Part shown: positions 32,782 to 38,746 of the stretch, one piece after another | How the letters are laid out: each line of letters begins with the position of its first letter | How positions within the stretch are numbered: position 1 is the first letter of the stretch | Assembly: GCF_012396615.1 (NCBI RefSeq) | Contig: NZ_JAAXPV010000007.1 | Span: forward strand, 1-64,000 | Length of the DNA: 64,000 nucleotides | Source of the DNA: Rothia terrae | GTDB taxonomy: Bacteria > Actinomycetota > Actinomycetes > Actinomycetales > Micrococcaceae | Direction of reading: 5' to 3' | Made by a program: the position numbers and the translations under genes | The notes under the pieces: generated by a model | Seen by the model: the letters and a program-made list of their open reading frames with translations, nothing else | Database searches by the model: none | Told to the model about the DNA's origin: nothing

Positions 32782-33072
32782 ATGGCACAGTTTGTTGTTG
32801 ACTCAGACCTCATTGCTTCAAAGAGCGCTCAGGCACGCGCCCACGTCGATTCGATTATTGCCGAGGTCAACGGTATGACGAGTTCTCTGCAGGATTTGCA
32901 GAACTCGTGGACCGGCTCTGCGTCCGTGAATTTTCAGGGCGTTTTGAGTAACTGGCGTGCTACTCAACGTCAGGTTGAAGAGGCTATCGCGCAGATTAAC
33001 GATGCCCTTTCCAAGGCAGGTATGAACTACGACGACACCGAGTCCGCTAACGCAGCGATGTTCTTAGGCTAG
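32782..33072 (+). CDS. WXG100 family protein (ESAT-6-like)
   Basis: A 96-residue helical hairpin protein with the WXG motif at residues 44-46 (NSWTGSAS), roughly half-way along as is usual, and flanking amphipathic helices (about 10-40 and 50-85). It has no signal peptide and would be a substrate of a type VII secretion system. AAAGGAACC ribosome site before the ATG. There is no second WXG100 gene, EccC or EssC gene in the window. Its promoter lies in 32643-32781. A YxxxD/E export tag is hinted at: a Tyr-Asp-Asp sits in the tail. Confidence 0.93.
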   Translation: MAQFVVDSDLIASKSAQARAHVDSIIAEVNGMTSSLQDLQNSWTGSASVNFQGVLSNWRATQRQVEEAIAQINDALSKAGMNYDDTESANAAMFLG

Positions 33073-33209: not shown

Positions 33210-34223
33210 CTACGTTGCGCTCTCTTGACGAAAACGCAGGAGCCAAGCGCCAATTTCATTGCGGTAGTTCTCGCGAACCCACCAGCTGGTGCGCACCACT
33301 TGACCGCGTTTAGTAAAGACTCGTGACACCACTAGCGCCGTCGACTCATTGAGCATATCGGTCTCGATAATCTCGGGAGTGCCTTCCACATGGAAAGCTC
33401 TCTCGCGGTGCTCAATGACTTCTTGACGAGACACAATGACGCCGCGAGGTGTCACCCACGAAAATTCGGGAGCTAGAAAAGATTCCAGCTTGTGCGCATC
33501 CGCGTAATTCTCGGCGCGCAAGAGAAGCTCTTCTTGGTGAGCGGCCAGGCGGTCAGGTCCAATCTGGGCAATGCGCGCGCTGTGCGCTTCTTCCTCGGCA
33601 CGGTCCTGTTCTTCTAAGGCATCGCCGGAACGATAGTTTGTAGGATGCGCGCGCCGTGCCTCTGCTTCGGCTTCGCTCATACGGTTTTGCGGTGACGGGA
33701 ACAAATCCACCACAGTGTGTTCGTCTGATTCGATGCTGTCAGCATCATCGGTAAAACCGGGGCCTGAGTTAGGCTTTTTTCCATCGCGGTAGGCTGTTGC
33801 CGCCGCACGTGCACGCTCATCAGCGGCTTCGTTCAGTGCGTGGCCCGCGTGGCCTTTCACCCACTTGAACTCGTAATTTCGCCCTGACAAAGCAGCGTCC
33901 AACGCCTTCATCAAATCCTGGTTCTGCACAGGCTTACCGTCGGATTTCTTCCATCCTTTCTTCTTCCAACCGGGCATCCACTTGGTCAAAGAGTTGATGG
34001 TGTACTGGCTATCGCACAGCACCTCAAGTTTTCTCTCGGGAACATGCGCCGTTGCTTCGAAAAGATCGAGCACTGCTTTGAGCTCGCCCATGTTGTTGGT
34101 GCCGTGCTTCCAGCCACCGGCAGCCCACGTATCATCATCGATATACCACGCCCAGCCTGCAGGGCCGGGGTTACCCAGCGCAGAGCCGTCAGCGGCGGCA
34201 ATAATTGGTTCTTTAGTTCCCAT
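33210..34223 (-). CDS. rnhA: Ribonuclease HI fused to a C-terminal NTF2-like (DUF4440) domain
   Basis: A 337-residue protein, about twice the usual RNase HI length. Residues 5-145 carry the full catalytic set: Asp12 (ADGSALGNPG), Glu47 (NNMGELKA), Asp71 (LCDSQY), His125 (WVKGHAGH) and Asp135 (NEAADERA). A basic hybrid-binding region WKKKGWKKSDGK is present. An acidic, probably disordered linker (about 150-225) is followed by a DUF4440/SnoaL-like domain (about 228-337): HQEELLLRAENYADAHKLESFLAPEFSW..RGVIVSRQEVIEHR..., ending in WWVRENYRNEIGAWLLRFRQES. The frame has no break, so this is a true fusion. RNase HI removes RNA from RNA-DNA hybrids; the added domain's role is unknown. Confidence 0.9.
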   Translation of the reverse strand: MGTKEPIIAAADGSALGNPGPAGWAWYIDDDTWAAGGWKHGTNNMGELKAVLDLFEATAHVPERKLEVLCDSQYTINSLTKWMPGWKKKGWKKSDGKPVQNQDLMKALDAALSGRNYEFKWVKGHAGHALNEAADERARAAATAYRDGKKPNSGPGFTDDADSIESDEHTVVDLFPSPQNRMSEAEAEARRAHPTNYRSGDALEEQDRAEEEAHSARIAQIGPDRLAAHQEELLLRAENYADAHKLESFLAPEFSWVTPRGVIVSRQEVIEHRERAFHVEGTPEIIETDMLNESTALVVSRVFTKRGQVVRTSWWVRENYRNEIGAWLLRFRQESAT

Positions 34224-34307: not shown

Positions 34308-35084
34308 ATGAGTAATATGACGCAGCAGCCCGCTACCGCGGTGGAGCTTTTTCTGCTTGATCCTGAGATGCTACGTTCCGGGTACGGCGTGAGTTGGCTT
34401 GCCTACGTAGGCTTCGAGGAACAACGCCGAGCCGCTGAATTTACTCACCCTGACGATGCCATGACCTACGCGGCGCAACACGCCCTGATGCGTACGATTG
34501 CGGCCACCACCCTCGGAGTGCTCCCCACTGGTGCGGCAGCAATCCCGGTGGATCGTTCGTGTTCTTTATGCGACAGCGGCGCTCAGCACGGTAAGCCCAC
34601 CATTGAGGGCGTCAACCTCAACATGAGCCGCACACAGGGCTTAGTCATTGGAGGTTTCACCCGCGACCACCAGTTGCTACTCGGCATTGACGTTGAGAAA
34701 TCTCGCGGATCTCTTCACAACGGCTTTGATCGCATCGCCCTGGCTCCCAGCGAAAGAGAGTTCCTTGCTACCCTTGACTCCCAGTCAGCGCAGCTGGTGC
34801 GTATGCTTTTGTGGAATGCTAAAGAGGCGGTGCTCAAAGCAACCGGTCACGGTCTCTCGGTAGACCCGCGAAGCGTCGTGGTAACAATGAGCGATGACAG
34901 TGCGCCCTTTAGCCGCGCACACGCGTCCTTCGCAGACCCCTCGACCGACCGTAAATATAGCTTTGACGTGCACTGGTACACGAAGGGCGAACACTACATC
35001 TGCGTTGCAGCGTCCGCCCCTGTATCTGTTGCTATGCATCGGGTAACAACACCCAAAATGGTGCGCGATCTTCTAGCGCCCTAA
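34308..35084 (+). CDS. 4'-phosphopantetheinyl transferase (Sfp type)
   Basis: A 258-residue enzyme that attaches the 4'-phosphopantetheine arm of CoA to carrier proteins of NRPS, PKS or siderophore assembly. It has the Sfp signature pair: GIDVE at 126-130 (metal-binding Asp128 and Glu130) and WNAKEAVLKATGHG at 169-182, the WxxKEAxxK motif with Lys172, Glu173 and Lys177. Length is right for the family. ATG 34308, although a second Met four codons later is possible. It is convergent with entC, whose stop is 4 bp away, which supports a function in dihydroxybenzoate siderophore assembly (inference). No carrier-protein gene is in the window. Confidence 0.93.
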   Translation: MSNMTQQPATAVELFLLDPEMLRSGYGVSWLAYVGFEEQRRAAEFTHPDDAMTYAAQHALMRTIAATTLGVLPTGAAAIPVDRSCSLCDSGAQHGKPTIEGVNLNMSRTQGLVIGGFTRDHQLLLGIDVEKSRGSLHNGFDRIALAPSEREFLATLDSQSAQLVRMLLWNAKEAVLKATGHGLSVDPRSVVVTMSDDSAPFSRAHASFADPSTDRKYSFDVHWYTKGEHYICVAASAPVSVAMHRVTTPKMVRDLLAP

Positions 35085-35087
35085 GAC

Positions 35088-36230
35088 TTAGCGGGTACTG
35101 ATTCCCAGCACCTTGCCGAAAGTACCCAGCTTGGTAGCGGTTTCAGCGTGCTCGCTCTCAGGTTGCGATGCGCGCACAATACCTGCACCCGCGAAAAGAG
35201 TTGCACGGTGCGGTCTCACTCGGGCGCAACGTAGCACCAGCGCCCACGAGCCATTGCCGTCCGCATCCATGTAGCCCACTAAGCCACCAAAATAGCCGCG
35301 GTCAAAGTCCTCGTACTCGCGGATGCTCTCTAGCGCAATATCGCGCGGAGTACCGCAAATCGCTGGCGTGGGGTGGATAGCCCGGGCACCATCTAGCGAG
35401 CTCAGATGCCCTTTGAGGACGCCGGTAATTTTGGTTCCCAGGTGCCAGAGCTGCGGGGTGGTCATGAGCTCGGGAACAGCGGGAGCATCAAGTTCCTCTG
35501 TTAAAGGGGCAAGACGCGAGCGGATATCATCAATGACGGTGGCGTGTTCGGCGCGGTCTTTAGCGGAGCGCATCAGCTGCTCACCAATTTGCATATCTTC
35601 AAGGTCGCCGGGGTGCGCAGAACGCTGAGCCGAACCGGCCAAAGGATGCGTGTTGAAGCGTCCGCCGGCTTCTGTCTTAAACACGAGTTCGGGAGAAGCT
35701 CCCATGAGGTACTCATCGGAATCCGGCAATTTTACGGAGAACGTGTAGGCGCGAGGCTGTTGCAGGGTCAGGTTATCGTAAACATCAGCAATTTTAAGCG
35801 GCTGGTCGTAGTGGGCGGTGAGGGTGCGTGCCAGCACGACCTTGTCGAACTCGCCGTTGTTCATGCGCGCAACCGCATCCCCTACAGCCTGACGATAGCG
35901 CGGGTTATCAATGCCCTCGACGCGGCTGGGAGCTGGGAAGTTATGCGAGCCGTCGGTAGCAGTGTCAGCGTCCTTTCGCTCTTCGACCGTGTAACTTTGC
36001 GGAACCCACAGGGTTGCAGGACGAGACGGATCAAACGGCACCAGCCCCATCACAATAGATTTCTGTGCGCGCGCGGTTTCAAGCGCTGTTTCTTCAGTAA
36101 CAGCAGTTAGCGCACCGGCGCTGGTGATGCTCTGGTGGCCCACACTCATCACAAAATCAGCAAACGGTTGCTCAATACTCACGGGCGAAAACTTTCTTTC
36201 TCGAAGCGCATTCGTTGTTAGTGTACTCAT
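35088..36230 (-). CDS. entC: Isochorismate synthase
   Basis: A 380-residue chorismate-binding enzyme converting chorismate to isochorismate, the first committed step of 2,3-dihydroxybenzoate siderophores. Family blocks: RYRQAVGDAVARMNNGEFDKVVLARTL, YLMGASPELVFKTEAGGRFNTHPLAGSA and STPAICGTPRDIAL-like PTPAICGTPRDIALE (C-terminal). The Glu/Lys metal-site residues lie in SIREYEDFDRGYFGGLVGY. It resembles EntC/DhbC more than menaquinone MenF by the neighbours. Third gene of entB-entA-entC; its start abuts the entA stop. No terminator obvious in the 3-bp gap before the convergent pptase gene. Confidence 0.92.
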   Translation of the reverse strand: MSTLTTNALRERKFSPVSIEQPFADFVMSVGHQSITSAGALTAVTEETALETARAQKSIVMGLVPFDPSRPATLWVPQSYTVEERKDADTATDGSHNFPAPSRVEGIDNPRYRQAVGDAVARMNNGEFDKVVLARTLTAHYDQPLKIADVYDNLTLQQPRAYTFSVKLPDSDEYLMGASPELVFKTEAGGRFNTHPLAGSAQRSAHPGDLEDMQIGEQLMRSAKDRAEHATVIDDIRSRLAPLTEELDAPAVPELMTTPQLWHLGTKITGVLKGHLSSLDGARAIHPTPAICGTPRDIALESIREYEDFDRGYFGGLVGYMDADGNGSWALVLRCARVRPHRATLFAGAGIVRASQPESEHAETATKLGTFGKVLGISTR

Positions 36231-36998
36231 CTAAAACGTTGCACCACCATCGACTGTTAGCTCCTGCATTGTCACGTGACGGGAGCGTGAATCTACGAGA
36301 AACTCGATGACAGCTGCAATGTCCTCAGGCTCAGCGATGCGTCCGAGCGGAATACCGAGCCTGAAATTCTTGCTGTTACCTTCAACCGGCTGGTGAGATA
36401 AGTCTTCACCGCGCCAGGCGTCGGTAATCATTGGTGTGCGTGTGGTTCCCGGGCACACGGTGTTCACTCGAATACCGTACTGTGCCAGTTGCAAACCAAA
36501 ACTTAAACTTACACTCGATGCAGATGCTTTAGAGGCACCGTATGCACCGAATTCCGCTCTGGGCGTGTGTGAGGCGTTAGAACTCACCGTGACAATACCG
36601 CGTGCGTTAGTGCTATCTTTCGGGTTCTGTTCAATCATGAGCTGCGCAAATTCGCGGATCACGAGAAAGACTCCGGTGGAGTTCACCGCGTGCAACTGCT
36701 GCCAGCTTTCGAGCGAGGTTTCTAGTAGCGGCTGGCTGTGAGCGATGCCGGCGCACAGCGCAAGCCCCTGCAATTCTACTCCTAGTGATTGAACCGAAGA
36801 TCTAAGAGCGAGGATGCTGTCTGCCCGGCTCATATCGGCTGGGAAGTAGGGAGTATTCGACTCTTCACCAAAGTTCTCTCTCCACTGCTGAGCGCTCAGC
36901 ACATCTGTTGCGACTACCCCGTAGCCAGCTAAACGGAGAGCCTCGGTGGTGGCGCGTCCCACTCCCCCGGCAGCGCCCGTCACAAGAACATATTTCAT
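36231..36998 (-). CDS. entA: 2,3-dihydro-2,3-dihydroxybenzoate dehydrogenase
   Basis: A 255-residue short-chain dehydrogenase. NAD+ binding motif VTGAAGGVGRATTEAL (about 5-20). Catalytic Ser and the YxxxK motif lie in TVSSNASHTPRAEFGAYGASKAS (Tyr about 153, Lys about 157). NxxG and GTTRTPMI occur C-terminally. It oxidises 2,3-dihydro-2,3-dihydroxybenzoate to 2,3-dihydroxybenzoate. The EntA assignment rests on position between entB and entC and on the sequence class. It overlaps entB by 4 bp (ATGA type), so translation is likely coupled. Length and motif spacing are normal. Confidence 0.9.
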   Translation of the reverse strand: MKYVLVTGAAGGVGRATTEALRLAGYGVVATDVLSAQQWRENFGEESNTPYFPADMSRADSILALRSSVQSLGVELQGLALCAGIAHSQPLLETSLESWQQLHAVNSTGVFLVIREFAQLMIEQNPKDSTNARGIVTVSSNASHTPRAEFGAYGASKASASSVSLSFGLQLAQYGIRVNTVCPGTTRTPMITDAWRGEDLSHQPVEGNSKNFRLGIPLGRIAEPEDIAAVIEFLVDSRSRHVTMQELTVDGGATF

Positions 36999-37651
36999 GC
37001 GGCGCCCCTTACGCGAGTTCCGCTACCGAGCTGATCCAGTGCTTGCTGGGTAGAGCACACAAGACCGCATCGTGAGGCAACATAGTCGCAGGCCATCTGA
37101 TGCTTTTCAAGGCTGAAATCAGCGAGCGCATCGTGAATAAAGAAGGGCTGGGTCTCGTGCATGAACGCGTCAAGAGCGGTCGTCATGCAACCGATATGAG
37201 CGTACACACCGGTAATCAAAAGCTGGTCGCGACCCCAGCTCTTCATCTGCTCACGAAGATCGGTGTGCGCGAAGGCTGAGTAACGCCACTTGGTCAAGAG
37301 CTCCGATTCTTGTGCCTGTAGCTCTTCAATGATGGCAGCGGCTTCATCGCTTTGCAGACCGGTACCCCAAAAATCTGTCAGTAGCGCGCGTTTTTCTGCC
37401 GTTTGACGCGGTGGTTGAGCTGAAAAAACTACGGGAATATCTTGCTCGCGTGCGGCGGCAATAAGCGCTGCGATGGAATTAATAGCAACGTTGATTTGAG
37501 CAGAAGAATCGGAGCGATCGAATGCGTTGATGAAGTACTGCTGCATATCGTGCACAAGCAACACGGCGCGGGCAGGATCCAGCGTCCACTCAACGGTGTT
37601 GGTGAGGTTTGCGGGCGTATATCGATAGCCGGAAATCTGAGGTAGAGCCAT
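36995..37651 (-). CDS. entB: Isochorismatase (stand-alone EntB-type domain)
   Basis: A 218-residue isochorismate lyase/isochorismatase domain that makes 2,3-dihydro-2,3-dihydroxybenzoate from isochorismate. Active-site motifs: AVLLVHDMQQYF (Asp about 36) and VYAHIGCMTTALDAFMHETQPFFIHDALADFS near the C-terminal half, very like EntB/DhbB. Bifunctional EntB is about 285 residues and ends with an aryl carrier domain; this protein ends right after the isochorismatase domain, so the carrier must be elsewhere. ATG 37651 is preferred to 37711 because GGAGAAAGC precedes it and the residues before it are not conserved. First gene of the operon. Confidence 0.93.
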   Translation of the reverse strand: MALPQISGYRYTPANLTNTVEWTLDPARAVLLVHDMQQYFINAFDRSDSSAQINVAINSIAALIAAAREQDIPVVFSAQPPRQTAEKRALLTDFWGTGLQSDEAAAIIEELQAQESELLTKWRYSAFAHTDLREQMKSWGRDQLLITGVYAHIGCMTTALDAFMHETQPFFIHDALADFSLEKHQMACDYVASRCGLVCSTQQALDQLGSGTRVRGAA

Positions 37652-37713
37652 GCTTTCTCCTAGAGACTGTGGTTTTGTACCGGTGACCAGAGAAAACACT
37701 AACACACTCAAAC

Positions 37714-37921: not shown

Positions 37922-38746
37922 ATGCCCCGCAAGCTCTTCTGCGAGATCTCTCCGCTCACCTACCAAATCTCCCGCCGCAAAAGCATCCTCACTCGACAGA
38001 TCAAAGACCGCCTCAGCAAAGAACATTTTGCAACCGCTAAAAGCAATGAAAAACTGTCGGTGGTGATCTACAAGCACAATTCTCTGATTCGCCGCCAGCT
38101 CGGCAATACGCGCATGGACCTTCAAGAAAACAAGGCGCAAAACCTCAAAATCTGCACTCCGCTCGTCAACGGCGTGCTTATCAAGCCCGGCGAAGTCTCT
38201 TCACTCTGGAAGCTCGTTGGTGAATGCACACCGAAGAAAGGCTATAAAGAAGGGCTGATGGTTGGACGCGAAGAGGACGCCCAGTCCGGTATTGGCGGCG
38301 GCATGTGCCAGTTCTCAAACCTTATCCACTGGATGGTGCTACACACCCCCTTTGGAATCGTGGAACACCACCACCATGACGGTGTTGATATGTTCCCTGA
38401 TTTTGGTCGCAAAGTCTCTTTCGGCACCGACACCTCGATTGTTTACAACTACCTCGATTACAGGTTCCGCAACACCACCGATAAGACCTACCAGCTCATC
38501 ACCTACACCGATGACGAATACCTCTACGGTGAATTGCGTTCCACCGAGCACCAAGACTTCAAATACCGCATCAAAGTCGAAGACGAGTTCTTCAGCAAAG
38601 AAAACGGCACGGTCTACCGCAACTCCAAAATTTACAAGCGAACCATCGACCGCGCCTCCGGCAATGATGTCGAAAAACAGCTCATCAAAACCAACCACGC
38701 AAAGGTACTCTACGATACGAGCAACCTTGAGATTATAGAGATGTAA
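37922..38746 (+). CDS. VanW family protein
   Basis: A 274-residue soluble protein of the VanW family, found in vanB-type clusters and widely in Gram-positive bacteria, function unknown. The diagnostic core is SLWKLVGECTPKKGYKEGLM and the GIGGGMCQFSNLIHWMVLHTP segment (about 120-145), followed by HHHHDGVDMFPDFGRKVSFGTDTSIVYNYLDYRFRN. No signal peptide or membrane segment at the N-terminus. No vanA/B ligase, vanH or vanX nearby, so it gives no evidence of vancomycin resistance. AGAAAG precedes ATG 37922. Confidence 0.9.
   Translation: MPRKLFCEISPLTYQISRRKSILTRQIKDRLSKEHFATAKSNEKLSVVIYKHNSLIRRQLGNTRMDLQENKAQNLKICTPLVNGVLIKPGEVSSLWKLVGECTPKKGYKEGLMVGREEDAQSGIGGGMCQFSNLIHWMVLHTPFGIVEHHHHDGVDMFPDFGRKVSFGTDTSIVYNYLDYRFRNTTDKTYQLITYTDDEYLYGELRSTEHQDFKYRIKVEDEFFSKENGTVYRNSKIYKRTIDRASGNDVEKQLIKTNHAKVLYDTSNLEIIEM

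Follow-up and report, generated by a model that had tools for sequence, protein, structure and literature searches.

E. coli RnhA-type RNase HI, of about 155 residues and with no extra domain, shares its catalytic domain, fold and invariant acidic residues with the protein described here, in which a linker and a further folded module follow at the C-terminus. The nearest actinobacterial fusions are Rv2228c, MSMEG_4305 and SCO2299 (RNase H-CobC/acid phosphatase), likewise type I RNases H with a C-terminal domain after a linker (PMC7466739). Their second domain is a phosphatase/CobC, whereas ours is NTF2-like, and the RNase H parts are distant, Rv2228c (3hst) matching our protein only at E 4.6e-4. 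As described for RNase H-CobC, the second domain of such a fusion may be dispensable (PMC7466739). RNases HI with a hybrid-binding domain (HBD/dsRHbd; eukaryotic RNase H1 and some bacteria) also carry an accessory non-catalytic domain on the chain (PMC1950709). In our protein the accessory domain is C-terminal and NTF2-like, and an N-terminal hybrid-binding domain was absent in Pfam at E up to 1, RNase_H beginning at residue 8 with no extra family. With DUF4440/NTF2-like proteins (SgcJ 4ovm, 2r4i, 3fsd and the CaMKII hub) the protein shares a fold at low identity. As a domain combination it is an RNase HI variant for which open-access text, mostly at listing level, yielded no paper, nor was one found there on RNase HI at the sliding clamp.

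The gene lies in a 64,000-nucleotide stretch of the Rothia terrae genome (the window), where an ATG starts a 337-residue open reading frame. The features discussed below are as follows.

33210..34223, minus strand: whole gene, RNase HI plus C-terminal NTF2-like (DUF4440) domain, 337 aa (ORF, Pfam)
33798..34202, minus strand: RNase HI catalytic domain, residues 8-142 (Pfam, alignment, Foldseek)
33624..33755, minus strand: linker, residues 157-200, disordered, mildly acidic (pLDDT, composition)
33699..33707, minus strand: D173-L174-F175 in HTVVDLFPSP, weak candidate sliding-clamp-binding motif, no Q at position 1 (sequence, family statistics)
33213..33608, minus strand: C-terminal domain as modelled, residues 206-337, NTF2-like fold (Pfam, model, Foldseek, VIA)
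33240-33536, minus strand: Pfam DUF4440 match, residues 230-328 (E 8.7e-9)

The Pfam RNase_H match (residues 8-142, E 3.8e-30) scores 105.4 bits against a curated cut-off of 25.8 and spans positions 5-140 of the 141 of the profile. D12, E47, D71, H125 and D135, which we take to be the catalytic residues of RNase HI, are invariant across the 45 aligned orthologues; the catalytic domain is thus complete, as a first, sequence-only reading had held. Among NCBIfam models PRK06548 (ribonuclease H) scores best, over residues 3-160 and at 176.6 bits, below its cut-off of 280. The nearest solved sequences to the 337-residue protein are E. coli RNase HI entries, and the full-length model matches E. coli RNase HI in Foldseek at E 8.7e-15; the 50 matches listed in this fold search are RNases H and are uninformative on the C-terminal part. 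We infer that the enzyme strips RNA from RNA-DNA hybrids (R-loops, primers) in the cell. The genome contains a single full-length match to the protein. Since the only other RNase_H match (41.9 bits) falls in a 451-residue ORF of different make-up, the window gene is, judging by sequence, probably the orthologue of the housekeeping RNase HI. The divergent match (G000:C23:66918-67334; L211 748-2103) adjoins an ATPase-like ORF and is possibly part of a mobile or defence-type gene.

In the full protein DUF4440 matches residues 230-328 at 36.2 bits against a cut-off of 25.2, and the C-terminal 156 residues scanned alone give 38.1 bits. Both domains named by the sequence-only reading are therefore present on one chain, and the C-terminal part ends ...WWVRENYRNEIGAWLLRFRQESAT, as that reading described. 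Predicted in isolation, the C-terminal domain reaches pLDDT 91.5 and pTM 0.82. The full-length model, built on the 45-sequence alignment, has a mean pLDDT of 86.6 with both domains confident, and its pTM of 0.54 fits two domains that would lack a fixed arrangement. NTF2-like structures head the Foldseek matches of the C-terminal domain (3fsd, E 3.2e-6; SgcJ 4ovm, 3.6e-6; SgcE6 4i4k, 4.1e-6; 2r4i, 5.2e-6). VIA-align superposes it on 2r4i with Z 14.9 (110 residues, 2.0 A) and on the CaMKII hub with Z 13.9, and a profile search of solved sequences picked up a putative CaMKII association domain, 3ksp (E 4.9e-4). The natural rows of the fold comparison are at about 13-23% identity. Model, Foldseek and VIA neighbours agree, so that the NTF2-like fold of the C-terminal domain is confirmed for the predicted structure and a different fold is ruled out. 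A histidine phosphatase/CobC domain gave no Pfam match at E up to 1, and a phage origin of the C-terminal domain is unsupported by PHROGs, with no match at E up to 0.1. Only G261, W315 and Q333 are invariant in this domain, against several dozen residues in positions 1-156 of the 45 sequences. The tryptophan and glutamine are retained in 43/43 aligned C-terminal domains, an alignment from which L034 and L047 were omitted on account of their long linkers.

A scan of 84,980 species genomes confirmed 194 relatives, of which 80 were retained, and many of these match over the full length in one open frame. A read error fusing two genes is ruled out, because the same joined frame recurs across many independent genomes. 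Full-length matches come from Rothia, Kocuria, Arthrobacter, Glutamicibacter, Paeniglutamicibacter, Sinomonas, Brachybacterium and Propionibacteriaceae; one metagenome bin labelled Corynebacterium and one labelled Dietzia also have the architecture, and these labels may be wrong. Within Micrococcaceae the query was matched in 178 of 245 genomes, some rows being the RNase H part only. In a phylum survey at E <= 1e-45, 5 of 296 genomes matched and the close class was unseen outside the order.

The first alignment comprised 45 sequences drawn from 110 loci, and DUF4440 was found in 40 of them at E <= 0.01 (Pfam). The larger sample started from 180 distinct RNase HI tails, reduced to 165 complete ones (score >= 190) and to 143 after a redundancy filter. 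A profile search with the C-terminal domain detected the NTF2-like domain in 115 of the 165 complete orthologues. The fusion marks a clade-wide class of RNase HI, shared by Micrococcaceae and related families, and is not a one-genome oddity. The sequence-only reading had called the partner unusual, which holds against RNases HI in general but fails within the clade, where this is the commonest form. In the Rothia mucilaginosa-type orthologues L034, L047, L181 and L182 the linker ahead of the NTF2-like domain is far longer, their tails measuring about 300-340 residues.

In 29 of the 80 loci compared, a gene for a protein similar to the window's histidine kinase is oriented convergently with the RNase HI gene, and this gives no functional clue. 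Beside the RNase HI gene in the window is a 96-residue ORF (32782-33072, plus strand) that is WXG100 (EsxA-type)-like by eye. Also beside it, at 34308-37711, are a Sfp-type phosphopantetheinyl transferase and isochorismate synthase-like, short-chain dehydrogenase and isochorismatase-like genes, which by eye would form a catecholate siderophore cluster. The ORF at 37922-38746 (plus strand) is VanW-like by eye, has a codon flavour unlike its neighbours and was possibly acquired.

The linker lies between the two folded parts and its residues 161-184 and 193-198 have pLDDT under 50 in the full-length model. It had been described as acidic; a linker it is, and its acidity is only mild (10 D/E against 4 K/R over residues 157-200). 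Across the 45 sequences the linkers vary in length and are unalignable, and a motif nevertheless recurs in orthologue linkers, often as [QE]PDLF followed by acidic residues (PDLFSEL, QPDLFSVL, DDLFSLF, SLFSFDD, ALFDFDD). LF occurs in 77 of the 143 non-redundant tails, against a mean of 16.2 and a maximum of 29 over 500 shuffles, which preserve composition but not kinship. Of the 95 non-redundant NTF2-type linkers, 46 contain DLF (0.84 on average over 500 shuffles, at most 5) and 25 contain [QE]P[DSAG]LF (shuffled mean 0.05, maximum 2), whereas the reversed pair FL is found in 2 of the 95 against a shuffled mean of 9.4. The commonest 3-mers of these linkers are DLF (46) and LFS (42), which exceed APA and AAA. 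A broader pattern, written after the data had been seen, is present in 94 of 162 tree rows (shuffled mean 10.6, maximum 19). The ten residues following LF are 30% acidic, compared with 17% over the whole linker.

The motif is not confined to orthologues with the NTF2-like domain. Based on profile classes, 11 of the 13 orthologues without either folded module terminate exactly in LF (the exceptions are L155 and L157); the alternative, regular-expression class of short LF tails is partly defined by LF, and L065, L069, L070, L071 and L077, five of these 11, are closely related to one another. The regular-expression classes also put L193, L196 and L199 outside the NTF2 class, and the profile finds the domain in them. 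Among the 14 lower-scoring rows (L167 to L180), L172 and L176 end in or near LF. LF lies within the tail of 18 of the 37 orthologues with a ribbon-helix-helix-like (RHH-like) tail. It is missing from the other 19 and from 60 of the 115 NTF2-type orthologues, and thus cannot be essential. On the RNase H tree LF requires 12 changes against 54 for shuffled labels, from which it follows that LF is inherited by clade. The case for a function therefore rests on its survival in unalignable linkers and across module loss.

To follow the C-terminal module we used a tree based on the RNase H domain alone (162 distinct cores, 138 columns), in which bootstrap support was not settled and the states NTF2-like (112 rows), RHH-like (37) and none (13) require 8 changes where shuffled labels average 46. 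A strongly supported group of 24 Microbacteriaceae-type rows (RHH-like 18, none 6) is placed among NTF2-type Micrococcaceae rows, and the Brevibacterium-type rows sit elsewhere on the tree. Based on these placements, the NTF2-like module looks to have been replaced in at least part of the non-NTF2 lineages. The assignment of the alternative tail as RHH-like is weak: of six such proteins scanned with Pfam, four gave RHH-type families (NikA-like, RHH_1, FitA-like), all below cut-off, and a profile search of the PDB matched FitA at E 1.1. Aligned with each other, the two alternative-tail types score a probability of 95.7% over 31 columns, using profiles from rows picked by eye. The top rows of the PDB profile search were dTor designs, which look like repeat artefacts; no stretch passes alone. 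The Brevibacterium-type tails (L039, L054, L139-L149, L152, L161-L166) end TTVVSCRVPxxVADELVxRAxAxGxHPQEFLAxLIGRSLE, which is RHH-like, and are without the LF motif; a DNA-binding dimer on an RNase HI would be odd. The recurring linker motif and the between-family swap of the C-terminal module were overlooked by the sequence-only reading; within the finding, it is the motif that lends itself better to testing and holds more interest.

Clamp-binding motifs are described as Q-aliphatic-x-[LM]-[FL], with QLDLF as the strongest pentapeptide, some of them C-terminal and with acidic residues or a free carboxyl end behind (PMC11139829). In the same genome DnaE contains the candidate AAGQFDLFGDM, and YGVQGSLFEEN occurs in one Y-family polymerase; no such motif is seen in a further Y-family protein. 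The RNase HI linkers have in common with clamp-binding motifs the [LM][FL] core, a site in a disordered tail or at the C-terminus, and an acidic or free end behind. Unlike those motifs, they often replace Q by E or a different residue, and position 2 is often P and not aliphatic. Among 49 LF-bearing linkers, position 1 is occupied by E in 20 and by Q in 12; the other 17 carry a different residue, and 12 of them read L where the second LF of LFSLF was scored. Exchange of Q for E in the QLDLF peptide is reported to reduce affinity greatly (PMC11139829). The words RNase and ribonuclease have 0 occurrences in the main text of that clamp review, and a mycobacterial DnaE1 motif was not found in print in open-access text.

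The window's own copy is a weak candidate for a clamp-binding motif. It reads VVDLF (VVDLFPS), without the glutamine of clamp motifs at position 1, and its [LM][FL] core, L174-F175, lies inside the stretch of pLDDT under 50. In the clade of the window protein 22 of 23 rows are without LF, near variants being VSIF (L082) and DSIF (L003). By chance DLF would appear about once per hundred shuffled linkers (0.84 of 95), and the DLF of the window protein may be a remnant or chance.

The reading that we favour, tentatively and at somewhat less than an even chance, is that a housekeeping RNase HI is tethered to the replisome by its linker and carries a C-terminal module for oligomerisation or docking. 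Through the LF motif of its disordered linker the RNase HI would bind a partner in replication, with the sliding clamp DnaN as the likeliest, much as polymerases do through their clamp-binding peptides. The NTF2-like module would have no enzymatic role and would serve oligomerisation or protein docking, thereby raising local concentration or avidity. The fold of the C-terminal domain says nothing on function; its neighbours in structure and profile comparison include SgcJ and the CaMKII hub, which is an oligomerising domain, and the suggestion of the sequence-only reading that the domain dimerises or targets the enzyme is plausible. In the wider family the LF-centred motif outlasts loss or replacement of the folded module. 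That the RNase HI is a sliding-clamp client through a QPDLF-type tether, with exchangeable NTF2-like and RHH-like modules that oligomerise it so that two motifs or active sites cooperate, is possible but doubtful; the RHH-like module would then be the exchangeable oligomeriser of Microbacteriaceae and Brevibacterium.

The main alternative for the C-terminal domain is that it is a passenger, an NTF2-like fold fused once and kept by drift with no effect on RNase H. Such a history would agree with the low conservation of the domain (three invariant residues), with its loss or replacement in several lineages (the 8 label changes on the tree), and with MSMEG_4305 of M. smegmatis, in which removal of CobC hardly affected growth and fixation by drift was proposed (PMC7466739). 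The stable fold, the tryptophan and glutamine kept throughout and the presence of the domain in most complete orthologues argue for selection, however, and drift alone would be predicted to leave broken copies; we regard a passenger as unlikely. The sequence-only reading had also raised sensing, in which the NTF2 pocket would bind a small ligand and switch RNase H activity. Many structural neighbours are pocket proteins, but nothing pointing specifically to sensing emerged, no ligand-related conserved neighbour gene was found among gene clusters named by eye, and we consider such a switch rather improbable.

Two other explanations concern the linker motif. It could bind a partner other than the clamp, for example by mimicking the C-terminal tip of SSB and filling SSB-tail pockets, including the enzyme's own. 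Some tails do end acidic then hydrophobic at the C-terminus (DEIAPLF), like SSB tips, and in E. coli the enzyme is bound to the SSB tail and found at the replisome (PMC11253446). Mimicry fits less well given that the SSB of the same genome ends ADDEPPF, not LF, and most LF motifs are internal whereas the SSB tip is terminal; a non-clamp partner is quite unlikely. The motif could instead be inherited residue similarity without function, consistent with its absence from whole clades, including that of the window, and with its clustering on the tree. Against this, the surroundings are unalignable and of variable length, yet the motif exceeds the commonest low-complexity 3-mers, and it is exactly C-terminal in short-tailed orthologues of separate clades. 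A motif without function is improbable in our view.

For E. coli it is known how RNase HI gets to R-loops and primers close to the fork, namely through the SSB tail (PMC11253446), and this sets a precedent for localisation of RNase HI at the fork by another route than the one proposed here. If the module of the Micrococcaceae-type enzymes is idle, they would add to the domain fusions that persist without effect, as has been argued for MSMEG_4305. If the proposed docking is true, a clamp-docked, oligomeric RNase HI would be a second, independent solution in another phylum, one that is testable with peptides and single deletions.
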